Positions 2,933 to 20,900 of a stretch of DNA of 54,855 nt are shown here, piece by piece. Within the stretch, counting starts at the first letter, position 1, and the number at the start of each line of letters is the position of its first letter. Under the pieces are notes generated by a model. The model was not told the DNA's origin. It saw only the letters and a program-made list of their open reading frames with translations, and ran no database searches. Source of the stretch: Desulfobacterium sp. (GTDB lineage: Bacteria; Desulfobacterota; Desulfobacteria; Desulfobacterales; Desulfobacteraceae); contig JAEINR010000032.1 in assembly GCA_016342325.1 (NCBI GenBank), positions 1 to 54,855 of the forward strand, written 5' to 3'. The translations under genes were made by a program, and so were the position numbers.

Positions 2933-3162
2933 ACTCGACTCTTTTAATGATCTGGATGAATAATTTTGTGGTGCCCTGGGCCAGGGTTTGTAAGTTGACG
3001 GGCTCAAAAGCCAAGCATTTACTTTTAAGTATTGTAACGATAAGGAACAATAATGGTTCAATATCCCGTCGCAAACAGAGTCAAAGGTTGGCCCAGGGCT
3101 GATTTTAACGAATGGTTGCCGGTTTTTTAAGACCGCCGACACGGTCTGGTTTGATACACGCA

Positions 3163-3246
3163 TGGAATACAATTTTACATAAAAAAGGTCCCTTGTTTGC
3201 GCTGAACAGCGTTAATATTTACGTTCTCTCTATCCAATGTTTTCAT
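3163..3246 (-). other. Candidate slippage-linked start of an HTH segment (copy 1; copy 2 at 3795-3878)
   Basis: Downstream of the terminator an ATG at 3246 opens a 23-codon frame (MKTLDRENVN...) ending with a run of six T just before ATG TAA. Moving back one base at the T run joins it to the frame reading YVKLYSMRVSNQ and on into a segment with the look of a LacI-type recognition helix (VSNQTVSAVLKNR, then ISPGPTFDSV). Either there is ribosomal or transcriptional slippage, or this is a decayed or separate start. No good Shine-Dalgarno is visible before 3246. Confidence 0.3.
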
Positions 3247-3326
3247 CTTTTTTTTTCGGCCTACACCTCTTCTTTTTTTGATCAAGAAAAAAATCTTTTT
3301 AAGTTCGATTTTGAATCCGATCCCCC

Positions 3327-3371
3327 AAAAAAAGGAGGAAGGGAACCGACCCCTCCCCTCCTTTTTTTTTG
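3327..3371. terminator. Bidirectional terminator after HTH gene (copy 1)
   Basis: A run of A, a GGAGGAAGGG arm, a short loop, a CCCTCCCCTCC arm and a run of T make a hairpin with T tracts on both strands. It sits right after the stop of the chimeric HTH gene. An identical element is at 3959-4003 after the intact HTH gene. Confidence 0.75.
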
Positions 3372-3393
3372 AGAGACATCTTTTGATCAGCGA

Positions 3394-3795
3394 TTAGGTT
3401 TCTTCATCGAGTTTTATTAAATAAGCAGCCACATCAACCCCTTTGCGTGACAAGGATGCAAAACGTTTTTTTACCTCAGAGTCCCCATAAAAGTTTTTTT
3501 CATGAAGTTCATTCATTTCATCCTCAGATAACTCAGGGATGTTCTTCTTCAACTCCGCCACAGTGACAACTCCTCCACCAATAAACGATGCTAAAACCTT
3601 CTCATTGATTGGTACCTTATGTTTTTCATAGTTTCTGATTTCGCTCAACCGGCTAGGATGCACACCAAGTTTCTTGGCAAGCTCAACATTCAATATCCCG
3701 TCGCAAACAGAGTCAAAGGTTGGCCCAGGGCTGATTTTAACGAATGGTTGCCGGTTTTTTAAGACCGCCGACACGGTCTGGTTTGATACACGCAT
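3394..3795 (-). CDS. Chimeric HTH protein created by tandem duplication
   Basis: Open from TTG 3804 or ATG 3795. The first about 36-39 residues (MRVSNQTVSAVLKNR... to DGILN) are identical to the segment upstream of the 1910-2932 gene. From VELAKKLG on, the remaining 97 residues are identical to the C-terminal part of the repressor at 4026-4412. The joint falls exactly at the duplication boundary (3689/3690) and is in frame. The product would keep the repressor's XRE-like helix (KKLGVHPSRLSEIRNYEKHK) and its C-terminal domain, but replace its first helix with another HTH-like segment. It has no promoter of its own that I can see apart from whatever lies in the duplicated gap, and a terminator separates it from the upstream copy. 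It may be expressed weakly or be a by-product. Confidence 0.55.
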   Translation of the reverse strand: MRVSNQTVSAVLKNRQPFVKISPGPTFDSVCDGILNVELAKKLGVHPSRLSEIRNYEKHKVPINEKVLASFIGGGVVTVAELKKNIPELSEDEMNELHEKNFYGDSEVKKRFASLSRKGVDVAAYLIKLDEET

Positions 3796-4321
3796 GGAAT
3801 ACAATTTTACATAAAAAAGGTCCCTTGTTTGCGCTGAACAGCGTTAATATTTACGTTCTCTCTATCCAATGTTTTCATCTTTTTTTTTCGGCCTACACCT
3901 CTTCTTTTTTTGATCAAGAAAAAAATCTTTTTAAGTTCGATTTTGAATCCGATCCCCCAAAAAAAGGAGGAAGGGAACCGACCCCTCCCCTCCTTTTTTT
4001 TTGAGAGACATCTTTTGATCAGCGATTAGGTTTCTTCATCGAGTTTTATTAAATAAGCAGCCACATCAACCCCTTTGCGTGACAAGGATGCAAAACGTTT
4101 TTTTACCTCAGAGTCCCCATAAAAGTTTTTTTCATGAAGTTCATTCATTTCATCCTCAGATAACTCAGGGATGTTCTTCTTCAACTCCGCCACAGTGACA
4201 ACTCCTCCACCAATAAACGATGCTAAAACCTTCTCATTGATTGGTACCTTATGTTTTTCATAGTTTCTGATTTCGCTCAACCGGCTAGGATGCACACCAA
4301 GTTTCTTGGCAAGCTCAACAT
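3690..4321. repeat. 632-bp tandem duplication, copy 2
   Basis: Second unit of the same duplication. Its right boundary (4321/4322) lies within the intact repressor gene at the codons preceding VELAKKLG. Undoing the duplication leaves one intact repressor and one copy of the downstream N-terminal HTH-like segment, so the ancestral order can be read directly from the sequence. Confidence 0.93.
3959..4003. terminator. Bidirectional terminator after HTH repressor (copy 2)
   Basis: Same hairpin as at 3327-3371: GGAGGAAGGG pairs imperfectly with CCCTCCCCTCC, flanked by A and T runs. It ends the repressor transcript started at the 4452-4480 promoter, so the repressor is probably monocistronic. Confidence 0.75.
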
Positions 4322-5180: not shown

Positions 5181-6521
5181 CTACTCCGCATTCTGCCAGT
5201 ATCTCTTCAACCTCTTCGCCAGCCTGGAATCCATCCGCTTCTTTTTCTCGTACATGGCAATGGACGTTGTCATCATAGCCGTGGGGCGTTCCTTCCCGTC
5301 TTTTATCTCCTTCACAGCCAGGATTACGGCATCCTCGTTGTCCAGGAACTCTAAAAAAGCCTCTTCATCTGCCAGTTCTTGCTCTCTTTGCCGGATTTTC
5401 TTTTTGGCATTCAAAGCCTGCTCTTTGATCTCAAGAGATTTTGCCGCTGCGGCCACATCCTCTGTCTCTAAACGGGCTTTTATCTCTTCCGGGTACTCGA
5501 ACCCTTCGGGACGGTTCATCCCGCCCTTAACGGTAATAATCTTGAAGATAACGCTTACAGGCTTACGTGAGTTTTTTACAGACGAGTCGAACTCGCCCTT
5601 CTGGAGGTTCTTCATGATGAACTCGGGGGAGAGGTCATGGTCATTCATCCATTCTTGGACCTGGATAAACGATAATTCTTGTTTCTTCCAAAAATCAGAA
5701 TTTTCGAGATAGTAAGTTAGTTTAGATATAGAACTTACTAACTTACTATTATAAGAGCTGTTCTCTGACAGACTGGGTATAGACCCTGTACTGGGTACTG
5801 GACCCTGACTGGGTATAGACTGGGTACTGGGTATAGACTGGGTACTGGGCATAGACTGGGTACTGGACCCGGTACTGGGTACTTTTTCAATTTGGATTTC
5901 GGTGTTCAAGCGATATGGACATATCCTATAAACAGGGTCATAATCTCCAATTTCTATGACCTTAAACTTTTTAAATTTTATAATTGCTTTCTTGATGGTG
6001 TGCGCTGAAATGCCCGTTTGACGGGATATCTCCCCTTTATTGAAATATCCCGTAAAGCCATTTCCTAAAAACCAATTGTAAATAAGTTGTTGCTTTGGGG
6101 CTAATCGAATACTGGGTACTGAACCTACACTGGGTACAGACTGGATACTGGGTACTATACTGGATACTGGACCCTGATCGGGTACAGACTGGGTACTGGG
6201 TATAGACTGGGTACTGGACCCTGACTGGGTACTGGACCCAATGCTGGGTACTGGACCCTGACTAGACCCTGACTGGTCCCTAACTGGACCCTGACTAGAC
6301 CCTGACTGGTCCCTAACTGGACCCTGACTAGACCCTGACTGGTCCCTAACTGGTCCCTGACTAGACCCTGACTGGGTACAGACTGGACCCTGGCTGGGTA
6401 CTGCCCCTTGATCCCCGAAATTGAAGAGAGTCGATCCCTCATCCTTCTTTTGTTGGCTTGACTCTATGATCCTTTCGGACAAGCCCTTTCTTTTTCTCTC
6501 CTTCTCTCTCTTCGTCATCAT
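5181..6521 (-). CDS. Winged-helix replication/partition protein with embedded DNA repeats
   Basis: 446 residues from ATG 6521, just past the parA stop, with GAGGAAAG upstream; the frame is open to 6563 but that would overlap parA. Order: a basic N-terminus (MTKREKERKRKG), a 100-residue low-complexity stretch of SQGPV/STQS/PSIQS repeats, a winged HTH (about residues 140-210, including NKGEISRQTGISAHTIKKAIIKFKKFKVI), a second low-complexity stretch, then a helical C-terminal domain with WMNDHDLSPEFIMKNL and a charged coiled coil. The wHTH plus C-terminal plan resembles plasmid and phage initiators; pairing with ParA equally suits a centromere-binding ParB analogue. The low-complexity parts are encoded by 11-bp-phased DNA repeats (see 5771 and 6111), reminiscent of lambda O, whose gene contains the origin iterons. 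Function is therefore replication or partition, not settled. Confidence 0.7.
   Translation of the reverse strand: MMTKREKERKRKGLSERIIESSQQKKDEGSTLFNFGDQGAVPSQGPVCTQSGSSQGPVRDQSGSSQGPVRDQSGSSQGPVRDQSGSSQGPVPSIGSSTQSGSSTQSIPSTQSVPDQGPVSSIVPSIQSVPSVGSVPSIRLAPKQQLIYNWFLGNGFTGYFNKGEISRQTGISAHTIKKAIIKFKKFKVIEIGDYDPVYRICPYRLNTEIQIEKVPSTGSSTQSMPSTQSIPSTQSIPSQGPVPSTGSIPSLSENSSYNSKLVSSISKLTYYLENSDFWKKQELSFIQVQEWMNDHDLSPEFIMKNLQKGEFDSSVKNSRKPVSVIFKIITVKGGMNRPEGFEYPEEIKARLETEDVAAAAKSLEIKEQALNAKKKIRQREQELADEEAFLEFLDNEDAVILAVKEIKDGKERPTAMMTTSIAMYEKKKRMDSRLAKRLKRYWQNAE
5771..5883. repeat. ACTGGGTA-type repeats inside the wHTH gene, right of the HTH
   Basis: About 113 bp made almost only of ACTGGGTA, TATAGACTGGGTACTGG and ACTGGACCC words. 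In the gene's frame they encode PSTQSIPSQGPV. Same word set as at 6111-6403, on the other side of the HTH-coding part. Confidence 0.85.
6111..6403. repeat. Iteron-like array inside the wHTH gene, with three perfect 33-bp units
   Basis: Three perfect 33-bp units lie at 6253-6285, 6286-6318 and 6319-6351, with a partial fourth. Each unit is three related 11-mers (TGACTGGTCCC, TAACTGGACCC, TGACTAGACCC type). Outside the units are ACTGGGTA words as at 5771. Eleven bp is one helical turn, so the words would face the same side of the DNA. Encodes SGSSQGPVRDQ repeats. Confidence 0.88.
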
Positions 6522-6525
6522 CGGC

Positions 6526-7332
6526 TTAACTTTCCTCGAAGAATTTAATAAATTCAGTGGCAATTCTTCGGAATGCTTGGGCTCCTTTTGACTGAGCCCG
6601 GTATGTAAAAATAGAATGTCCCTTTAGCGCCTCAAGGTTTTGGAAGTCGGCAGATGTCGGGATGGGGGTCCGTAGGATATTCTCCTCCCCAAACCGAAGT
6701 TTCGCCATTTCGATATTCGCCTTGCAAGCAGACACCCGCCTGTCCACTCGGTTGGTCACGATTTTGGCAAATTTGAAGTCTTTGTTCCCAGACTTCGCAA
6801 TGCCTTGGGCCAGACCTAAAACTCCCTTTATCCCTTCCAGAGAATTCCCGCTCCCGGCTTCGGCAGGGATTAATAGAAAATCAGAAGTATGTAATGCCAA
6901 GGATAGGAAAATAGCCAGCGTAGGAGGCACATCTACAAATGTAAAATCATAATTTTGAATAGCATAATCCCTGATAGTCTCTTTTAACAAGGTATTTGAT
7001 TGTGGGAAATCCAGGGTTAAAGGCATTTCAAGCCCCGAAGACTCGATAACATTCGGGAGAATGAAAAGATTAGGGTGAACTGTGGGATAGATGCAATCCT
7101 CAATGGCTGGGGGGGGAGTTTCTTTGTCCAGCAACTCATACAGAGTGTCTTTAATCTTCGTATGCGAGGGTAACAGATAAGAGGTGCTGTTACTTTGGGG
7201 ATCGCTGTCTACGACTAAGACTTTAAATTTTTTTAGAGCTAAAGCCGCTGCCAAATTCACCGTGGTGATAGTTTTTCCCACGCCTCCCTTGTGATTTGCT
7301 ATGGCCCCGATGTATCCACGTTTTAATTTCAT
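6526..7332 (-). CDS. parA: ParA-family partition ATPase
   Basis: 268 residues, ATG 7332 with GGGAGG upstream. Deviant Walker A KGGVGKT at residues 15-21 with the signature Lys, Walker A' region DSDPQSN at 42-48, Walker B FVDVPPT near 130. No N-terminal HTH, so it is the short (Soj/type Ib-like) kind and probably does not bind an operator by itself. ParA proteins move plasmid or chromosome copies along the nucleoid with a centromere-binding partner. No classical ParB is in the window; the next gene, starting five bases after the stop, is the obvious partner. Preceded by a near-consensus promoter. Presence of parA in a phage genome points to a plasmid-like lysogenic state, as in P1, N15 and similar phages. 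Confidence 0.92.
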   Translation of the reverse strand: MKLKRGYIGAIANHKGGVGKTITTVNLAAALALKKFKVLVVDSDPQSNSTSYLLPSHTKIKDTLYELLDKETPPPAIEDCIYPTVHPNLFILPNVIESSGLEMPLTLDFPQSNTLLKETIRDYAIQNYDFTFVDVPPTLAIFLSLALHTSDFLLIPAEAGSGNSLEGIKGVLGLAQGIAKSGNKDFKFAKIVTNRVDRRVSACKANIEMAKLRFGEENILRTPIPTSADFQNLEALKGHSIFTYRAQSKGAQAFRRIATEFIKFFEES

Positions 7333-7374
7333 CCTGCCTCCCTATGGGTTGGGTTTAAAATGCCGCTCTATTGA

Positions 7375-7403
7375 CCGATACCCGAAAAACCGCACAATGT
7401 CAA
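7375..7403 (-). promoter_or_regulatory. Promoter of the parA operon
   Basis: Minus strand TTGACA (7403-7398), 17 bases, TATCGG (7380-7375). Leader of about 35 bases to the GGGAGG box and ATG 7332. Confidence 0.65.
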
Positions 7404-8852: not shown

Positions 8853-8975
8853 GCCTATGGACACGCCTATGGAATAGTCCTTTTATAGTCCTTTTATAGT
8901 CGTGTCATAGGCTTGACATTTTTAATTTAGCGATATTTCAAACGAAAATCTATATATATTCTTTTTCGAATCTAT
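8853..8975. promoter_or_regulatory. Control region of the lysis operon: inverted repeat and AATCTAT pair
   Basis: GCCTATGGACACG (8853-8865) and CGTGTCATAGGC (8901-8912) form an inverted repeat with one bulge; between them TAGTCCTTTTA is repeated. AATCTAT occurs at 8947-8953 and 8969-8975, 22 bp apart, the second ending at the giant gene's stop. A TTGACA at 8913 points rightward without a clear -10. No leftward consensus promoter is obvious. Confidence 0.45.
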
Positions 8976-11900
8976 TATCGTTTGGATTTTTTCGTGGACA
9001 TGCTCCTAAGAGCCGTCTTGACACTTTTGTCGGTGATATAGGTTGCTCCCCTGCCCCTGACCCCTTTATCCCGAACCCTGCGGTTATAGGCCAACACCAT
9101 GCCCCTGATCCGCATCATATCAGCCGGGTTCCGCTTCTCCGGAGGCTTGATAAAGTGCCCCTTCAGGTGCATGTAAATGTCTGACCGCATATCCTGGTAC
9201 TTGGCTTTGATCTTCTTGTCAGCGTAGAGCTTGTTCAACTTGCTGGCAGATCGGGTGGGCCGGAAAGACAGCGCCTCCAGGAGCGCATCCAGTTCGTCAT
9301 GCTTGATACGTTTCCCTTCATAGAACACCGGGGCTCCGGAATAGGTCGTGGTGCCCTGGTCATATTTCCGGGCCGCTTCAAACATATTCTGAACGAATGC
9401 CGGGGAAAAATCCTCTGCTGCCCTCCAGTAGAAACCCTTGGTAACGTTCCTGGCGCCATCCCATATATCGCCACACATGGAACCGAACGCTCCCAGGCCG
9501 GCATCCGGAATACCCATCTTCAAAGATCCGGACAGATCCGCTCCGTGCTCGGGGATACCCATCACACCGTACCGGGCAATGCGCTCGGCCATGGGACCGT
9601 AATTCGTATCCAGGTATTTATAGAAATCATCCTCGGGGTCATCGCTGCCCATGAGTTTGCCAATCAGGGTAATGAGTGCACTAGCACCCAGGGAAGATCC
9701 TACGCCAAACATGGTTGGTGCAAATGCCAGCCAAAGAGCGCCCTGGGCATTGTCGTTCATCCAGGTCCCAGGCTTCTTGATTTCTGCATCACGGATACCT
9801 CTCCATCCCATTTTGGCCATGTTGAGCATATAGTTATGGGTAAAAGTCATGAAGATGTAGGGCACCTGGAGCATCCGGGCCGCCGGTTTCTCCCCTTTCA
9901 TCCAGCCGGGCTTATTGGCCCGTTCGTAAACACCATGGGCATCATCAGAGAGTTCCTTTGCCCTTTGCAACAGATCAAAATTAACGTTGCCATCTTCATT
10001 GACCAGGTCAACCTTTGCCTGGCCGGCCAGGGTTTTATATAAGCCGGCAATGGTGGCCGCCCGGTTGATCTGCTCCGTGACGGAAAAACCAAACATCAGG
10101 GCATTCATCATCTTGTCAAAGCCTTTGCCTACCTTTGTCTGGAGCGTGTCAAATGCTTCTTGGTTAAGTTTCGGTTGATCCAGGCCCTTATCGGCAATGG
10201 CCTGGAACAAGGCTTTATGGGCAGGGTCCAGGGTCTGGGACCCAAATTTGAATTGCCCGTAGAGTTTGATACTTTTGGCCACATTGGTGCCCACGGCCTG
10301 GAAGGACAACCCGGCAGCTTTGGCCACCCCGGGGACGCCCAGGGCAAGGTTGGTCAGGTTGATCGCCGCCGAACTGACCCGGCCTGCCAAGAAATAAAAC
10401 ACCGTGGCCGCCCTGACTTTGTTGATAGCCCGGTCAATGGCGTCATCATTCCGGAGGATATCCTCCATGGAATCGGTAAGCTCGGCGTGTAGGTTTTCCT
10501 GTTTTACCGGATCGATCTTTGATGAATTGACCAGGTCAGCGTAATCTTTCCAAATGCCAGCGGACAACCGGCCTATCTCTTTCCGGAGTGCCTGGGCTTG
10601 CTGGGAATTTGTGTATTTCAGCCGGGAACCCTTTTGCAATTCCTCGACTTTCTCCAGGATGGCCTTGGCTTCCGAAGCCGAATTGAACTCTTTTTTAAAC
10701 AGCAGTTTTCGAAGCTCGGCAAGTTCTTTCTTTTTCTCCCCGGCCGTGGCAACTTCCTCGGGTGTGCTGATCACCATTTGCTTCAACTGCTCCTGGGCCT
10801 TGAGGAGATCCCGGCTACCTGGGTGCTTGGCCTGGAACTCCTCCCAGGTCGTTTCCATGCCCATCATCATGGAGTATCCCTTTTGTGCGATGGTCTGTTT
10901 TGCAAATCCACCTGCAGCGCCGGCAACAAGTTGGGCTGTGGCCGTGAGTAGGTCCTCTTCATATCCCTTGACGACATCAGTACCCGTGGACTCTGACCTA
11001 GGAATCATCCTGGCCCGGGAGCCACGGGAACGAATCTGGTTTGCGAGTTCTTGGACAAAGTCGGAAACGAACTGTTCATTGACGGATTCGTTAAGTCCTG
11101 CATTTCTGAACAGGGCTTCAACGAGTTGTTTCTCAATGTCCTGGGGAGGATTCCTAAAAACATACTGAGGGGTATATGCCATCCCCTTGGCGGTCAGCTT
11201 CATATCGTCAACGTACACCCCGCCCAGAGACTCCATCAGCTTTTCAAAAGCTGGATCGAAGGGGATGGACCCGGTCAGGATGAACCTATTGCCTTCCAGC
11301 TTGCCATTGAATTTAAGATCAGACAATGACCTTTTGTAGATAGGGATCTTGGACAGGACCTGACTCGTTGCTGCCTGCTCGGCCATGCTGTCCCGGATAC
11401 CTTCAAACATTTTTTCCGGGATCACCGTGTTCTTTTTTAATCCGGAGACTGTGTATCCCTGGGCTTTAAGATCGCTCATCCTTTTGGATGCCATGACCTT
11501 AGAATCAAAATATTCCCTGGTGGAGTGATCCCCTTCCTTACTGGCGAAGACTTCAAATTTTCCGGACTGTCTGATCCTGGGGAAGTAGTACCCACGCCTA
11601 TCGCCCATGATCTTCAAGGCCGCCCGGATATCCACCTCGATGCTGCCCTCGATGGTCTCCATGACAACCTTGGGAATGGGCTCCCCGTTAAGCTCGGCCT
11701 CCTCGATGATGTTCAACCATTCATCGTAATAATGATGAAAGGAGTTCATGACTATGTTTCGGTAAGCCTTCAGGGCTTCCTTTTCCATGTCGTTACCCGG
11801 GTAGGCGGCCATTTCGTGTTCGATGGCGGCCTGCTCGGCCAGGGCTTCAGACTCGTATATGTCTCCAATCCTTTCCCCTTTCACGGCCTGGGCAATCCAT

Positions 11901-14900
11901 CCACCATCCTCTTTCCGGATCTTCCATCCCTTCTGGTTGATATCCCGGTCCATGATGTAGGCGTTCAAGGCCGCATACTTGGCCTTGTGTTTCATCAGGG
12001 GCAGGATTCCATCCGTGAAGTGGTCGAATTCTCCTCTTACACCTGCAGTGCTGGAAAATAGATCCGTCTCTTTCTCCACTTTGATCGAGGTTTTGTTTAG
12101 CATCAGGTCAATGACCTTATCAGCCGTGGCGTCAAGGCCCTTGAAATGGGACAGGATGGACATGACCCGCTCGATGGCAGAGAGGTCTTTCTTGTCTGAG
12201 GCTTTCACCTTTTCGGGCTTGAATATGGCCTTGGCCCAGTCGTTGGCTTCTTTCCATGCCTTGTTGCTTTTCTTCTGCTCGGCCTTGGTTACGGTTGCCT
12301 TGGGCTCTACTGTGGAATACTGAGCCTGTGATTCTCCAAATCCATACGCTTCAAAATCAAATTCGGCACCGTTCGCCCTGGGTAAATCTGCGGTGCCGAG
12401 TTCTTCATTGATTGCCGCCACTTCGGAATCTGTGAGTATCCGGTTAATTTTCATGGCCCCTGATATGATCCATGAGCCCGTCATGTTTGAATTGGTCTTG
12501 TATCTGTATGATCCATCAACGGGAATCTGATCCGTAATGTGGGCGGTCCTGGCGATGGGCTTACCGGCCTTGGTCAAAGTAGCCCTCTTGTTCGCTTCTG
12601 TTTGCCAATCAACATCATTGGGCATTTCAACTTCTGTCCACACCTGATCCGCTGGTCTGAACTGGGGCTTTGAGCTTCCATCTCCTGATTCCCCTATATG
12701 AGTCGCCATAGGGGAATCCCCGCCATGCCATCCTGGACGAAATGCCAGTGGGCCCAGGGTTGATTTTACTTTACCCTTATCGTTCATGGGTCCGATTTCC
12801 GCATCATGCCATAGACCCATTCCAACGGGATCTTTAGCCCCGACAAACAGCGGGAACAGTTTCCCGGGATGCTTCTTTTTCACCTTGAACAATTTGTACG
12901 CCTTGATCGTCTTCTTGGGTTCCGGTTTGGTTCGCAGTTCATAATGGGTATCCTTGTGCTCGATTCCCTCTGTCTCCCTGCTGTAGATCGATCCAGACTC
13001 CATGCCCCTGGCCACCTGCCGTGTAGATGAGTGGCCTAGATTCACCAAGGCGTCCAAAAAGTCGCCCACCTTCTGAACGATCCGGCCCACCAGGGTTCCC
13101 CGGTATGCTTTTCGGTCTGCCAGCACCTGGGCTATCAGGTTTGCCCGGTTTTCAGCCATGTCTTTATTCCAAGGTCCCTTGAATTGTCCCTCACGGTTTA
13201 GAGCCCGGGCTTTCCCGTCCAGGGCGATCTTGTCAGCTTGGGTGATAACCCCTATGTCTTCAAGCCAGTGCGCAACCTCATGGGACAGGGTGCCGGTGTC
13301 GGCAAAGTCACTGGACAAGGTGATGGTATTGGAAACATACTTGCCGGCGATCTCCCCGCCCCTGCCCATCTTGCCGGATTTGATTGCAAACTGGTACTCA
13401 CCGGAAGAGAGGCGCTTTACCGTGTTGATTTGACACCCGGCGCCATTCTTCAATCGCACCCATACAGACTTGTCCGGAGAGAGCCCTACGTTTTGCCCTG
13501 GGAACATCTTCTGTATGTCCTGGAGCGTGACCTCCTGGCCGGGGATGGTTGCGGTGGAATACATGGGTTCCTGCAATTCAGCTTTGTCGAGTCCCTGCTG
13601 GCCGAAACCAGCGGCTCCTATGTCTGGGTGTCTGGTGTCCTTGGTCTTGGGTGTCAGATCCTCATATATCGGGAGGTTATTAATATCTTTGACCTCGGTG
13701 TAAGTGAAAACTTCATGTGCAGAAGTGTCCCCTTCTTTGTGGGCCATGACATAGAACTCTTCTGCCCCGGCCCGGTGCCCCTCAACTTCGTATGCCTTAC
13801 CTTCATGATAAACCAAGGTCCCAATGGGTGCGCCCTGGGTGAGCCATACAGGGGGAGCGTCCGGGAATGCTGCCATGTCAGCCTGGATGGATTCCAGCAT
13901 TGCCTCTTTGTTTTGAAGAGCGGACTCCTGCCCAAAGGTTTCATGCTGAACCTGCTCAAACCTTTTAACGGCCCGGTGTTTGTCTTCAAGTTCCTGGGCA
14001 AGGTTTTCTGCTTTTTTGCCCATTGTTCTCCCGATGGAATCCAGGCTACCCATGACAGGCTGCACATTATAATAGCCCTCTCTGTCCAGGAAATACTCAG
14101 GGGCTACTGCCCACCGGGGTTCCATTACAATGTCAAAACCCCTAAAATGGCCTACGACTATTGACCCGTCATCATTATCTATCCTCTTCCCATGGTTCTT
14201 GATGAACATTTTTTCCAAGGCCACATTTGCTTTTTTACGGTTGGTATATGTCTTCTTACCTACCGTAATAGAAAAGGGTTTTTGCTTTTCTGTTTCAAAG
14301 TTGACAATATCAGAGTTGACCTTGGAAGCGTCTTTTTCAATCTCAGGGATCTTGGTTTTATTTTTTTTGAGCTTTTGCTTTGCTTCAACGATCCCCATGT
14401 CATGGAGGCGTTTTTTCTTGGACAGCTTTTCAATATCTTTTTTGAGTTTTTCGATCATCAGGATACGGGAATCCCCGGCGGCTTCTGCAAAGCTGGCTGT
14501 GATATCGTCAAGCTCGTTGCCTTCGTTCATATCAAGGGCATCACCCTCGATTGATCTCATACCGTCCTTGGCTCTCAAGAAATCAATGATAAGCTTCTGT
14601 TTCTTTGCTAATACCTGCCACCGTCGAGCGTCAATATTATTCGTGATATAACGGAATTCCAAGACAGTGTTCCATCTATTCCCCTGTCTCCAGCCCCGGC
14701 CGTTCCGCTGCTCCAATTCCCCAGGCATCCAGGGGGCATCGAGGTGGTGCATGGCCTTTAGGTTCTCCTGCATGTTCACGCCAGTTCCAAGGGTAGAGGT
14801 CAAGCCTATAACCACCCGGATCTCAGCCTTGTTGACAGCATCCGCAATTGCCAGCCTTTTTTTCTTCGTAGTTTTCCCGGTAACAACAGCTATTTGATGT

Positions 14901-17900
14901 TCAGGTATCCCGCCGGCAATAAGTTTTGCCTGAAGGTCCTTCACGGCATTGAAGGTTTCAACGGTTATTTTGTACTTTTCCCCATCAGCATTCCTACGGG
15001 ATCTCTTTGCTGTGTCGGTGTAGCCCTTTTCCATGAAAACGACCTGTGAAGCCTTTTCATGGGAATTATAGATTTCTGTGATATTTCTGACAGCCCTGTT
15101 AATCTTGTTGTCAGGATGGTCGGACAAATCCTTATCGTAAAGCCTCACATCAAACCCTGCTTTGGCCGCATCCGTCTCTACCAAAACCGGGTTCCTATTG
15201 TCACCGGATTTCATAATTTCCCGGCGTTCCCGCCCCGATGCGTTTTTGAAAGATCGGGATCTCTCAATGATGCTGTCAAGAATCTCCCGTTGTTGCGGTG
15301 ACATATCGGCTACTTCATTGATGACCTTTTTGTATGGCCGGCCCTTTACGGGTCCAGTGTCCGTTCTTCCATCCAACAATTCAAGCTGTTCTTTTTCCGT
15401 CAAACCTTCGGAGTGCAGGGTTTTTCCTGACTCGGTTTCTCGGGGTACAAATTCCGGCATATCCTCGGCAAAAACGATATCCATATATTGACCAGCGAAC
15501 CTACGAAGTTCAGATACGTTGTGGAATCCGGACAGTCTTGAAACCGATTCGTATTCTCCTGCGGCGTTCCTCTCTACATCCGAGTTGACAGAAGCGAAGG
15601 TGTTGAACCATGCGTCCCACCCAAGGACCCCGGCATCTTCCATCTTATCCGACATGGTATAACGCATGTGGTTGTATATCTCGTTCAGGGTGTTGGTGAT
15701 CGGTGTCCCTGTGAAGATGTGAACGCCTTTGCCACTGTTCATTTCCTTGACATAGGATGTCAAAAAGTTAAGGGCAATACTCTTGTTGTTTGTGGCCGTG
15801 TTCAGCCCCTTGACTTTCATCTTGGTGGAAAGGGGCGGCTTCTTGAACTCATGGGCCTCATCAATGATAAGCATGTCAATCCCGAGCATTTCAAAGGGGA
15901 CGGCATCCTCCCGGCTTGAAGCCAGGGCTTGCTTCTGAATATTCTTAATGATCTTGTTTCGTTGCTTGACAATCTCCTTTGCCGTCGAGGCTCCACGAAC
16001 TTTATTCAACTCTTCTTCATCATCAAGGATTTCGGCAATATCAAAGCCTTCCTCTTCAGCCGATTCGATTGCCGCCGTTTCAAGGGCTTCAATCTCTTCA
16101 GCGGCCAGCCGCATCAATGTTTCTTCTGAGAGGGTTAAACGATCAATCAGGGAGTGTGGCATAATAACGGCATCCCAATCGTCATTGGCGATCTGGTACA
16201 GTTTAGATTGAATGGTCGCAGGAGAGAGGTTATCAAGGTATAAAAGGTTGGAGCCCGGGTACATCTGCTGAATGTCATCCGCAACTGAGGCACTGTTCGC
16301 ATTGTGAGCCAAAATCAACGGCTTTTGGGCGATGCCGTACCGTCTGGATTCAATAGCAAGACCACCCATGGTAAAGGTTTTTCCTGTCCCGACCTCATGG
16401 GCGTATAATCCTCTACCGTTGGCAACCCCACGCCATATGGCGTTTACTTGGTGCATTCTGAGGTTAAATTCATCCTGCCCTATGTTCAACATCATGCCTT
16501 CGAAAGAGAGAAAAGAACCATCATATTCAGGGCTTGCAAAGGCATTCATTATTTCATTGTAATGCTTTTCCAGGGCAACCCGGCGATCAATATCTTTCCA
16601 AACCCAATCTTTTAAGGCTTCCCGGAATTCGTCAACCTTTTCATTCGCAATGGTTGATGCTCCAGTGTCGGTAAACTCGTTACCGTCAAGATCTCTTGCT
16701 TTAATAGTTATTAATTGGCCTGTGAAAGCTGCCCTGGCAACCCTTGTAAAATCGCAAATGATATCACCAGACTCTCTTTTCGGGCTCCAAAGGGACCTTA
16801 CTTCTTCCCTATCGTTAAGCATGCGATTATCGTCAAACTTGACAGACCAGCCAGTATTTGATGGTGTCAAGTGTATCGTGTCAGCTAATCCATCAGGGAG
16901 GTTCAAGGAGTCCTTGAAAAAATCTCTGTAAACATCAGAGGGAATCCAGGTTGCCCCGAGATTCACCTCAATGGAAAAATACGGGACATCCTTCGGAAGG
17001 ATCTTTTTAAGAGCCTCAATATTCCGGGCCATGTCCATGCCTTGCTTTTGTGCGTCTTGCGCTTCTGATAACTTGACTCTAACGTTTCCGGACAGGTAAA
17101 TATCTTTGACCTCAAACAAACCTGAAGGTGTCTCAAAGATGGCATCTTTGTCAAACAGCTCTTTTTTTACATCATCAACGGTTTTGCCTGTCGTCTCAGC
17201 AATGCCCTCAAGGTCAACTACCCTGGCATCCTCATTCCGAGCCATGACAAAGGCATCTGTAACAGACGGGTTTGTGAGAACCTTCCTTGTCCTCTGTGTG
17301 GATTCTGTTAAGACTTTTGACGGGGCGTAGACCGGGGCTTTTTTCGTGCCGGTATTGTTTTCAAGAGCCTCCAGCGCAGGGGCTAAAGGATCTTTTACTT
17401 TTTGGAGGACTTTTAGGCCATAGGAACCATTAATGGAACCCCATTGGTTCGTGAAGTTTTTATAGGCGGCATTCAGGTTCGCCCTTATCCCTTCAACGTT
17501 TGATCCCCCTGTCCTCTCTGTATCCAGGAGATTTCCGTATAGTTTTTTGATTTCAACCAGGGACTTGACCTGGGCCTCCCTGTCTTTTGTCACCTTGGCG
17601 TTTTTTACGGAGTATTTGACCACATCTGACAGCCTGGCCAGCCGCTCACCGGCAACAACGTAAATGTCTCCGTCCTTTGTTACTGTGATGCTATTCTGGC
17701 GTTCTTTGGTATTATTGCTGATATACTTGATGTGATCTACATTGGTACGCTTGGTGACGATATCTGCCGGGAAGTTATCAGCCAGGGAATCCAATTTGCT
17801 CCCATAGCCTCTTTCCCTTTCAACAATCATTCCCATCCGGCCCTGGGTCGTGCCGTGGCCCACGGTCATATTTCCAAGGACATGCTTCGGATTATGGTCC

Positions 17901-20900
17901 CAATATTCATTGACGGTGATCTCTCTCCCGTCAGGGTCCACAAAACCATCCCCATAGGAGTCCTTCAATGGCACCTGCTTTTTCCAAGGAGAAGTAGGTT
18001 CACTGATTTTTCCATCGGGGTGTTTCTGGAAGACTAGGATATCTGCAACAACAGAAGTGCCGGCATATTCTTTGAATGCGCCCATGGGCATCCGGTATGC
18101 GGCAATGAGCTTGCCCCTCTTTTCCATCTGGGTCCGGGCAACGGTGCCTTTCTTGTCCATTGTCCCAGAACTGGTAATGCCGATAACCAGCCCACCCGGC
18201 CTTACCTGATCCAGTGCTTTTACAAAAAAGAAATCGTGCAGGCTTAATGCGTATTTATCGTATCTTCTGGTCGCCGGGCCATCTGCTGCGAAAGGCCAGT
18301 TCCCAACCACCAGGTCATAGAACCCATCTGCGGTTGCGCTTTTTTCATATCCCATCTGCTGGACATTGGCATTCGGATAAAGCATCCGGGCCATGTCTGC
18401 GGTTGTTTCGTCCAGTTCGATACCGGTCAAGTCGCTCTTACTCTTGAAATCCTTGGGCATCAAGCCGAAAAAATTACCGATACCCATGGAGGGTTCCAGC
18501 ACCCGGCCACCCTTGAATCCCAATTTTCTGGCGATTTCCCAAATGGCTGAGACAGTCGGTGGGTCCGTGTAATGGGCGTTGATGATAGAAGCCTGGGCAG
18601 ACCGCCACGCAGATTCCCCAAGGTGTTCCCGCAACCAATCGTTTTCTTTCTGCCAGCCGTCTTTATAAATAGGGGCTTTCCATGATCCCTGAAATAGATC
18701 CTGCCCGAACGATCCCCATCCGATATATCCCGCAATGGCGTCCCGTTCTTCTGCTGTCGGATGCCGGCCATCGTTCATAACCTTGTTGAAGGTTTCAATA
18801 GCTGATTTGTTTTTGGCAAAGCGTTTCTTAGGGGTGCCACCAATCAGTTTTTTAGGGTCATCAATGTGATAATTGCCTAACCTTCTTCCCCGGGCTCCTC
18901 CGGATCCATCAGCAACCACGTTTGAGCCGCTTGTTGATGTGCGTCCGTCCGGGGCATCCCGTCCTTCCACATCTGTTCCTCGGCTTCCATCATCTTGCAC
19001 ACCAGAACGTATGCCGTCTCTTTCAGTATCCCCTGGAGATTGAGTTTCTGAAACATCTTCGGTCGGCTGTGTTGCCACACTTCCACCAGGGTCTTCTGGA
19101 GTTGTGTGTTCCCCTTCACTGGCCACGGTTCTTCCTCGTCCTCCTCGAACCGGGCTGTCTCCTTCAATATCCACGCCTTGAACGTCTTGTCGTCCTTCGT
19201 GATCTTGGTCTTGATCTTCGGCATCCGTATTCCCCTCTATTTCTTCATCAACCCAGCGTTCAAAGTAAGGGGAGGCTTTATGGCTTAATGCCTCCATGGC
19301 CACCGTAACAAATTCGGTGATGGATCGTCCAGTCTCTTGAGCATGTCCCCATGCAATATTCAATTGTTCTTTGATCTGCTGGTAGATATTTTCGTCAGCT
19401 TCTTCGGTGGAAAAGCTACCACGGTCCCCAAGGATGTCGTTGATGTTTTTAAAAGCGTCCATCATCTTGGATGCGGAATCCTTCACGTTGTCAGCGGCAT
19501 GGGACATACGTTCCTTGAGTTCGGCGGCCTTCTCATCCCGACCCCGGGCCTCCTCCTCTTTCTTGGCCTTGGCCTGCTTGGCCCATTCGGCTTTTAACTG
19601 ATCGCCCAGGGCAGAGCTTTTTTTCTTTTTCTTGGGTGCTGCATCCTTTTCAGATTTGTCAACAGTATTAACTGGGGTATCTGAGGGAGGGGTAGTTATT
19701 ACGTCCTCCGTTTTTGGGGCCTTGGGTGCGGTTGAAGGGGCTCCATCGTCAAGCCATTTCGACACCTGCGATGCCGTACCAAGGAAAACGTCCTCACCAT
19801 CCTTGGTAATGAACTTCCGGCCACCCTTCTCGCTCCGGGTGGTGTATCCCTCATCCTTGAGCCTGGCGGTTAGGGTCTTGTCCTTGTCCATGAGTTCTTG
19901 TGCCAGGTTGCCGTGCCCCTCGGTCTTCAAGGGAGTGGTAATAGGTGCCGGCTGTTTCTGAACTTCCCAGTCAAAGAGATAACCCTGCGCCGTGTCCACA
20001 TCAGCCGGGGAAAGTTTCTGGCCCATTTGAGTGTTGAACATCCGTAGGTTGGTCTGATCCCCTCGGGCCTTAGCCTCTTCAATGGCGTTTTTGATCAGCC
20101 AGGCGTGATGCTTTTTAACAGAATTATTCACCGTCCTGGACGTGGCCATGTTGAGTTTGGGGAACGGGGTGGTGTCCCTTCCTGTCATGGTCTTTTTAAC
20201 GTCCTTATGTGATTCGGTAGGAGCAGCGAAGCTCTCAGGCCATGGAGATGTCTGTTTTTGCTCGGGTTCCTTATTTGATGGCTGTTTGACAGAGTTTTGC
20301 TCAATAGGTTGAGCCTTATTCGATAGCCCCTTCCTTTGGAAAAGTTCTTTTATGGCTTGTTCATTGAAAGACAAAAGCCCATCTGACGAGTCCACGTATT
20401 TATCAAAGTCTTTAAAATCGCCTTCAAATTCATAGTAGGTGTCGCCATTTGAATCTTTCCCTTGGATCAACTTTGAACCATTCGGGTGCTCAATGACTTT
20501 ACGGGGCTCTCCAGAGACTTTGTAACTATAGGTCTTGAAGCCATCCCCTGACATTTCATGAGATGCTTTCTCTGGAGGCAGTTTCTTGTCAGCGATGGGT
20601 TCCTCAGACTGAGGGACGACATCAACCGGTTTCAAACTCTTTTCCGAAACAAGGACCTTTTTTCCGTCTGCCCTGGCAACCCACCATGACCCGCTTTTAT
20701 GTTTTTCCTGGAGAGTTCCGGAAAGGGGATCCCCTTTTTTTGTTTCCCATTCAACCAGGCTGCCCTTGGGCAACTCGGCAGGCTTAGCGTCCTCCTTTGG
20801 AGAAGCTTCAGCGGTTTCCCCGTCAGAATTATCAATAACCGGCGTTAAGGGTTTGCTTAAAAAGGTTGATACCTCTTTATCCCCACTTTCTCTCTGTCCT

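Follow-up and report, generated by a model that had tools for sequence, protein, structure and literature searches.

In the RepA_N plasmid pSK41, the Rep boxes lie within the rep gene itself and the linker that they encode is dispensable, and in the Rep of pPR9 the DNA-binding domain and the origin are swapped on a constant C-terminal domain (PMC5703833). Sites within coding sequence are also described for the Streptomyces plasmid SCP2, in which parS is embedded in the coding sequence of the ParA partner ParT (PMC12260392), and for phage lambda, where the iterons of ori-lambda sit within the initiator gene O beside an AT-rich region (PMC5043065). In the TubR–tubC, omega–parS (pSM19035) and pCXC100 systems, TubR (winged helix) or omega (ribbon-helix-helix, RHH) is found on blocks of short repeats (PMC5016525). 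We analysed a gene of comparable layout on contig JAEINR010000032.1 of Desulfobacterium sp., a stretch of 54,855 bp (hereafter the window). This gene, situated directly downstream of the partition gene parA, encodes a predicted DNA-binding protein (the binder), and the segment for its winged helix-turn-helix (wHTH) domain is flanked on both sides by arrays of short repeated words. Our literature search, outside which most subscription papers lay, returned no account of arrays flanking a wHTH in the gene of a ParA partner.

The locus resembles each of these systems in part. As in RepA_N, the putative sites lie within the gene and between domains, and they might serve here as initiator sites. 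Unlike in RepA_N, the arrays of the family described below flank the wHTH on both sides, mostly in steps of 7–12 bp, the gene stands in a parA operon, its N-terminus covaries with ParA and RepA_N is not matched in Pfam. The C-terminal domain of RepA_N is DnaD-like with five helices; the one found here is helical in AlphaFold2 (AF2) models and has no Pfam match to DnaD. The parS of ParT is a single 18-bp inverted repeat rather than two direct-repeat arrays around a wHTH; the window gene does contain an intragenic inverted repeat, and its product has no Pfam match to the ParB HTH. Words upstream of parA in three to four family members recall the TubR and omega systems, in which, however, the arrays are located upstream of the operon or over promoters and, in the case of TubZ, the motor is different. 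AspA, which belongs to a ParA system, is the centromere-binding protein of pNOB8, and Foldseek lists its structures (5k5q, 4rs8) for the window wHTH at non-significant E values of 0.04–0.08. The lambda O sites are 19-bp inverted repeats in a cro-cII-O-P module without ParA, and the analogy to lambda O drawn in an earlier note on this DNA fits as far as layout goes, although RepA_N Rep and ParT come closer as precedents.

We propose that the two arrays are the cognate sites of the wHTH encoded between them and that they jointly form an intragenic, parS-like centromere for ParA, which, judging from the sequence comparisons presented here, we regard as the probable interpretation on balance.

Arrays and domains of the binder gene

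The sense-strand words of the window gene are CCAGTCAGGGT and CCAGTACCCAGT. Array 1 (6111–6414, minus strand), detected by Tandem Repeats Finder (TRF) and by repeat search, advances in 11- and 7-bp steps; array 2 (5771–5883, minus strand), found by repeat search, has the same words in the same orientation. ACTGG words occur in both, with array 1 preceding and array 2 following the wHTH-coding segment (5883–6119), in agreement with the earlier note, which had placed repeats on both sides of the HTH-coding region. TRF reports 13.5 copies of an 11-bp unit at 6250–6397 and 3.8 copies of a 33-bp unit with 98% match at 6250–6375; the 66-mers starting at 6250 and 6283 are identical, which yields the three perfect 33-bp units (6250–6348) seen at first reading. 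Further rows of array 1 span 6111–6276 (48 bp), 6129–6235 and 6187–6263 (18 bp each), and those of array 2 span 5771–5866 (36 bp) and 5772–5866 (18 bp). The 11-bp phase perceived initially is not pure: the lattice mixes 11- and 7-bp steps, the CCAGT cores being spaced by 11 bp (11 times), 7 bp (nine times) or 22 bp (five times). Repeated 8-mers produce 295 matches within the gene, all on the same strand, and 74 outside it compared to 67 expected for the whole window (Markov model, mean of five runs).

The binder gene (5181–6521, minus strand; 446 aa plus stop codon) most likely starts with the ATG at 6521, four bases past the parA stop codon. Its product opens with a basic peptide, MMTKREKERKRKGLSERIIESS (6456–6521), a putative ParA-contacting tail, the similarity of which follows that of ParA. 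The wHTH of HTH type A (5883–6119) is delineated by the family profile, AF2 and Foldseek, and an all-helical C-terminal domain with a long helix (5184–5720) by the family profile and AF2; all three features are on the minus strand. AF2 models of the window protein and of L072, built from six sequences, consist of the wHTH, disordered linkers and the helical C-terminal domain. In the window model, the wHTH (residues 141–210) has block means of 83–87 in predicted local distance difference test (pLDDT) score, and the array-encoded linkers (residues 1–134 and 215–258) fall below 50, consistent with the low complexity attributed to the peptide beforehand.

Sequence searches do not assign the protein to a described family. 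The window binder has no match in Pfam or NCBIfam at E ≤ 0.1 or among prokaryotic virus orthologous groups (PHROGs) at E ≤ 0.01, and the binders of pHRM2a and Do28_1 have none in NCBIfam and only sub-cutoff matches in Pfam. The canonical ParB (ParB_N/CTPase), ParG/omega RHH and KorB are not matched by the window protein in Pfam at E ≤ 0.1; when the limit is raised to E 10 for P0001, P0002 and three domain pieces, the matches are all sub-cutoff and none is to ParB, ParG, omega or KorB. Foldseek matches of the window model are chiefly wHTH regulators, including AspA and TubR, none at E ≤ 0.001. The C-terminal domain has no usable match in Pfam or among Protein Data Bank (PDB) sequences, and the C-terminal domains of 11 members yielded, in one member, a single description-less PHROG (E 3e−4).

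Relatives of the binder gene

The sole plasmid match of the window binder is the hypothetical protein encoded after parA on pHRM2a of Desulforapulum autotrophicum HRM2, a plasmid on which three genes have been ascribed to Par-family plasmid maintenance (PMC2702500). The gene has the layout of the window's, but its words are GAGCAACA/GAGCAAGT at 8-bp steps. A first search of 58 relatives gave matches in eight; among 389 genomes of the order and class, the C-terminal profile matched 18 and the two wHTH profiles 10 and 10. From 27 open reading frame (ORF) matches we kept the 22 with at least 300 codons and both the wHTH and the C-terminal region, leaving out L055, L042 and both pieces of L043, which are short or split. 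Do28_1 of Desulfosarcina ovata (L071) was added, and the family set comprises 23 full-length genes, including that of the window; ten later loci (L109–L118) stand outside the 23-gene statistics. Assignment to HTH type C relied on visual inspection, as did the placing of the domain borders in L013, L036 and L071. L068 was rejected as a MarR protein, and L016 and L019 were rejected as sharing only 11-bp linker words. In phages, tblastn detected nothing related to the window binder or the pHRM2a protein, and viral contigs contained no locus related to the window protein or the queries A3 and A2. Genome contigs gave none with the window protein as query and six with query A5 (G011, two in G378, G010 and two in G003), with no new genes among them.

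A parA gene stands directly upstream of 22 of the 23 family genes, although in L061 the contig ends within it. Only L066 differs: it resides on a 6-Mb contig, and the 10.5 kb retrieved for this locus contain no ParA. Most members carry two arrays, and the words differ between lineages. Step length goes with the wHTH type: 8 bp in ten of the 11 type B genes (not L066), 12 bp in all three of type C, and 11 bp in six of the nine of type A, the others being L028 (10 bp), L053 (6 and 5 bp) and L058 (22 and 6 bp). One of the later loci, L110 (G641:C42), has a one-word 12-bp array that brackets the wHTH and reappears beyond the (AGT)n-type inverted-repeat region.

Evidence for selection on the DNA words

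According to the earlier note, selection may act on the DNA and not on the peptide. This is well supported, as the words are common across reading frames and, in most members, to both arrays. We counted 9-mer pairs recurring out of frame and compared them with synonymous-codon shuffles, which preserve the peptide and codon use. The window gene has 270 such pairs, whereas its 100 shuffles average 5.3 and reach at most 17; the maximum of 100 shuffles is exceeded in 17 of 22 genes, and 15 of 22 exceed the shuffles also for pairs between array 1 and array 2. There is no excess in L013 and L036 (12-bp in-frame steps, repeats in frame only), L066, L054 and L058. The array 2 of 19 of the 23 genes, including the window, is best matched by array 1 of the same gene (k = 6).

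As background, we used 106 mechanically called ORFs of 250–600 codons from pHRM2a, Do28_1 and the window, of which four exceed their shuffles. Two are the binder genes of pHRM2a (267 versus a maximum of 64) and the window (270 versus 19); the other two, both from the window, are marginal (15 versus 13 and 9 versus 7) and are the only such cases among the 104 other ORFs. None of the 57 ORFs from Do28_1 is above its shuffles, its own binder gene included. The marginal ORF with 15 pairs corresponds to the first 600 codons of a single 4689-aa open reading frame (8975–23044), which we take to be a multi-domain phage/plasmid protein and which holds other 11-bp repeats: those of the related word GGGACCAAGT lie in its linkers, at 21135–21334. 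In another genome, such 11-bp repeats occur at 1501–1586 of L016, in linkers of a large non-family protein with a wHTH-like C-terminus adjoining them. Intragenic arrays of this kind, next to a wHTH, may extend beyond the family.

Could the repeats be neutral or peptide-driven low-complexity linkers that grew by slippage and have no binding role? The predicted disorder of the linkers would suit this explanation, as would the similar 11-bp repeats in linkers of other proteins (the 4689-aa frame and L016). Nevertheless, we consider it very improbable, given the sharing of words out of frame, the presence of one word in two separate arrays, the rarity of such patterns in the 104 control ORFs, the occurrence of words beyond the gene as well as in a broken gene copy (see below) and the retention of words at saturated divergence. 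The latter is apparent from the window and L050, which have 32 of 78 wHTH residues in common and, at the identical residues, 13 of 31 third positions, yet contain CCAGTCAGGGT six and 12 times, respectively. In this pair the word persists despite saturated synonymous sites, and between lineages it shifts along with the wHTH. A relative that keeps the peptide and loses the words, which the earlier note named as contrary evidence, was not found in that form; but L066, with no parA nearby, retains the wHTH and C-terminal domain without an out-of-frame excess.

Covariation and natural swaps

Across the 23 genes, resemblance in words goes with resemblance in the wHTH (Mantel r = 0.42, p = 0.0005) and hardly with that in the C-terminal domain (r = 0.10, p = 0.10), and the wHTH and C-terminal domain are unlinked (r = 0.015). 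At the 21 loci used for comparison of the N-terminus with ParA (L066 and L054 were left out), the similarity of the N-terminal peptide tracks that of ParA (r = 0.39, p = 0.0008) and the words track the wHTH (r = 0.45, p = 0.0002), whereas words and ParA are unrelated (r = 0.01).

Natural swaps conform to the same pattern. L050 has the words and wHTH type of the window but the C-terminal domain of L060 and L070, the words of which differ. Within one genome, L013 and L028 encode similar C-terminal domains, but their wHTHs and words are different. The array–wHTH–array segment would be an exchangeable specificity cassette, with the ParA side and the C-terminal domain staying in place, and a single swap would give the plasmid a different incompatibility group.

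Extragenic words and co-resident copies

The scan for words upstream of parA covered the 15 loci for which 700 bp was available there; no parA start could be placed in L061, L028, L066 and L054, and the upstream stretch of L026, L063, L053 and L058 was shorter than 700 bp. In three of the 15, namely, L065, L057 and Do28_1 (loci L081, L092 and L071), the own words of the gene recur in inverted orientation upstream of parA, with 52, 41 and 12 reverse matches versus maxima of 18, 14 and 2 in 200 Markov runs. These clusters begin about 300–415 bp upstream of parA. The other 12 loci, including the window, have no upstream word cluster beyond chance; in the window, parA is not preceded by a tandem array, nor is there one within the 180 bp seen in pHRM2a. 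In L054 (L090), where the intragenic signal is weak, an 11-bp array of a related word precedes parA. None of the four upstream arrays is covered by an open frame of more than 73 aa, and no annotated gene lies under the Do28_1 cluster. The possibility that the words are confined to the gene is hence rejected.

These clusters bear on a further explanation, in which the arrays are operators for autoregulation, acting by roadblock or looping, rather than a maintenance site. Centromere-binding proteins of types Ib and III are described as doubling as repressors (PMC5016525), and three to four members do have words upstream of parA. However, the clusters are some 300–415 bp away instead of over the −10/−35 elements, the window and pHRM2a have no upstream words, and dozens of sites within the second gene exceed what a repressor needs; we deem a purely regulatory role improbable.

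In G082:C2, the intact gene is weak and is followed, 0.4 kb downstream, by a second copy that is broken (100329–101121; L108). The N-terminal and C-terminal pieces of this copy match, but its wHTH frame is not open; the 11-bp word of the intact gene is repeated here 12.4 times, more often than in that gene itself, and there are also another, small cluster and an inverted repeat of the (AGT)n kind. Words that persist without an intact protein are what a role at the DNA level predicts, and the words found outside the gene or in a broken copy in some relatives lend further support to the claim of DNA-level selection.

A search of the phylum gave matches in six of 375 genomes. One of these, G753, has five copies (C59, C67, C102, C113 and C201; L119–L123), with parA found on four of the five contigs. 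Their C-terminal DNA is 75–97% identical, the wHTHs share 28–53% aa identity and the array sets are five different ones, L120 and L121 having a CACCTGG piece in common. If the five contigs are separate replicons, incompatibility among co-resident replicons would select this pattern. From the sequences, it appears likelier than not, if narrowly, that reader and sites form one exchangeable piece of DNA, so that one recombination would replace both and found a new incompatibility group, the five co-resident copies representing five groups. Across nine within-genome pairs, the C-terminal domains are more similar (median 0.50) than between genomes (0.11). No within-genome pair exceeds 0.14 in word similarity and 13 of 244 between-genome pairs exceed 0.3, but fewer than one such pair would be expected from nine anyway; the data are consistent with word avoidance between co-resident copies but are not proof of it.

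Centromere or origin

The centromere would function as follows. Many copies of the protein would coat the arrays via the wHTH, with the array-encoded linkers as spacers; the basic N-terminal tails, concentrated on the arrays, would engage ParA and stimulate its ATPase, and this stimulation would move the replicon. The ParA operon, the covariation of the N-terminus with ParA and the upstream word clusters of some members, reminiscent of type Ib and III systems (PMC5016525), argue for this function. L066, the one member for which no ParA was found in the 10.5 kb retrieved, also lacks the out-of-frame excess.

Alternatively, the arrays could be the iterons of a replication origin inside the gene, with the protein as initiator, in the layout of pSK41 RepA_N Rep or lambda O. 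The wHTH would bind the arrays, an AT-rich inverted repeat beside them would open, and the helical C-terminal domain would recruit host replication proteins; ParA may additionally partner the initiator for partition. Such an inverted repeat with 13-bp perfect arms is present in the window at 5709–5749 (minus strand), past array 2 and where the C-terminal domain begins, and scores 13 compared to a maximum of 8 in 40 codon shuffles. It recurs after array 2 in 21 of the 23 genes (75–82% AT), surpassing all 40 shuffles in 16 of the 23; in L028, L058, L064, L065 and L066 it is within the shuffle range, and L054 and L056 have none at that place. The arms are of three recurring types, AGAAAGAAAGAT, AAGTTAGTTAGT and AGTAGTAGT. 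The sequence of the repeat follows the C-terminal domain (r = 0.36, p = 0.0002) and not the wHTH (r = −0.07; 21 genes, without L054 and L056), for which linkage suffices, because the repeat also encodes the start of that domain. An RNA hairpin was considered and rejected, as folding energies are mostly weak against 30 codon shuffles (below z −5 in two of 23); we describe a DNA inverted repeat because the DNA score is the clearer one. It could be an unwinding element, a second binding site or the recombination border of the cassette. In viral contigs, the inverted-repeat pattern has one match (L099), with no family gene.

Several other observations bear on the origin. The RepA_N precedent is favorable, the swap pattern of pPR9 being as seen here (PMC5703833), and on pHRM2a, where 63 features are annotated, a scan of 15 further proteins detected no initiator domain. 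On pHRM2a, the 11–14 kb region was rejected as a replication module, as it encodes IstA/IstB-like transposition proteins, a CHC2 zinc-finger protein and a KorB-like protein. GC skew gives a mixed picture: the pHRM2a gene is among the lowest 3.3% of skew positions, a weak point in favor, but the minimum is at 9.8 kb, and in G082:C2 the minimum is 16 kb away. The DnaA-box consensus is absent from 15 of the 23 loci as retrieved, and the N-terminal peptide covaries with ParA, parA being linked in 22 of the 23 genes. Neither RepA_N nor DnaD is matched in Pfam up to E 10 by the window wHTH, the pHRM2a wHTH, the window C-terminal domain, P0001 or P0002, or up to E 5 by 11 family C-terminal domains, and no RepA or DnaD title appears among the 50 Foldseek matches listed for each of two models. 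An origin is the main rival; it is possible but, in our judgment, unlikely, and we favor the centromere over it, although both may be true. The self-contained replication/partition cassette that the earlier note envisaged for the gene with parA is likewise putative.

A number of findings weigh against the centromere. The detrended GC-skew minimum of Do28_1, at 91.3 kb, is within parA and less than 1 kb from the middle of the binder gene, favoring an origin there, and a further ParB-like gene is present elsewhere on both pHRM2a and Do28_1. Some members also have arrays beyond the gene, and the functional array may be one of those. The 12-bp in-frame repeats of type C (L013, L036 and most of G753) are equally explicable by a peptide repeat; the two arrays of L036 share no words, and L054, L056 and L058 are weak inside the gene. 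The N-terminal peptide also correlates weakly with the wHTH (r = 0.16, p = 0.025) and the C-terminal domain (r = 0.175, p = 0.015), and the words correlate with the C-terminal domain in the 21-gene set (r = 0.17, p = 0.014). Word similarity is the same within genomes (median 0.058, nine pairs) as between them (0.056). Finally, physical linkage of neighboring segments likewise predicts covariation of words with the wHTH and of the N-terminus with ParA, and alone could give part of it; it is unlikely to be the whole answer, given that the window and L050 keep identical 11-mers many times despite diverged wHTHs.

parA and the window contig

The parA gene (6526–7332, minus strand) lies directly upstream of the binder gene and encodes a partition ATPase of 268 aa, which matches Pfam AAA_31 (E 5e−36) and PHROG 164, ParA-like partition protein (E 7e−52); the PDB chains closest by sequence are ParA/Soj. 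As in type I partition systems, the ATPase is of the Walker type and its gene is directly followed by that of a DNA-binding protein, its presumed partner. A putative parA promoter/operator is located at 7369–7403 (minus strand), with TTGACA at 7398–7403, a 17-bp spacer and TATCGGTCAATA at 7369–7380. The latter is identical at 12 of 12 positions in pHRM2a (L026), and TATCGGT heads the best match in L053, L059 and L070 and was spotted by eye in L065, making five other family loci in total. TATCGGT is found 3′ of TTGACA in putative parA promoters spanning wHTH types A and B, including that at 122–156 of L009. The motif seems to track the ParA type and is perhaps a ParA-dependent operator.

The window is the whole of contig C150 of a 6.67-Mb genome. 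It encodes a portal protein, terminase and ParA, and because these genes occur together, we read the contig as phage-plasmid-like. A terminal repeat was looked for in the contig and none was found. Positions 3057–4321 are duplicated in tandem without a mismatch (633 identical bases at an offset of 632), through either a recent event or an assembly artefact.

Implications

An old question of plasmid incompatibility is how a protein and its sites can change specificity jointly without passing through a broken intermediate. If the proposed arrangement is true, protein and sites are physically one cassette, and about two dozen natural word–wHTH pairs are available on a common frame, making the wHTH code directly testable. 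The words would also provide a typing handle for those plasmids of sulfate reducers, the binder genes of which are annotated as ‘hypothetical protein’. More generally, the family serves as a warning that low-complexity linkers can be cis-acting DNA.

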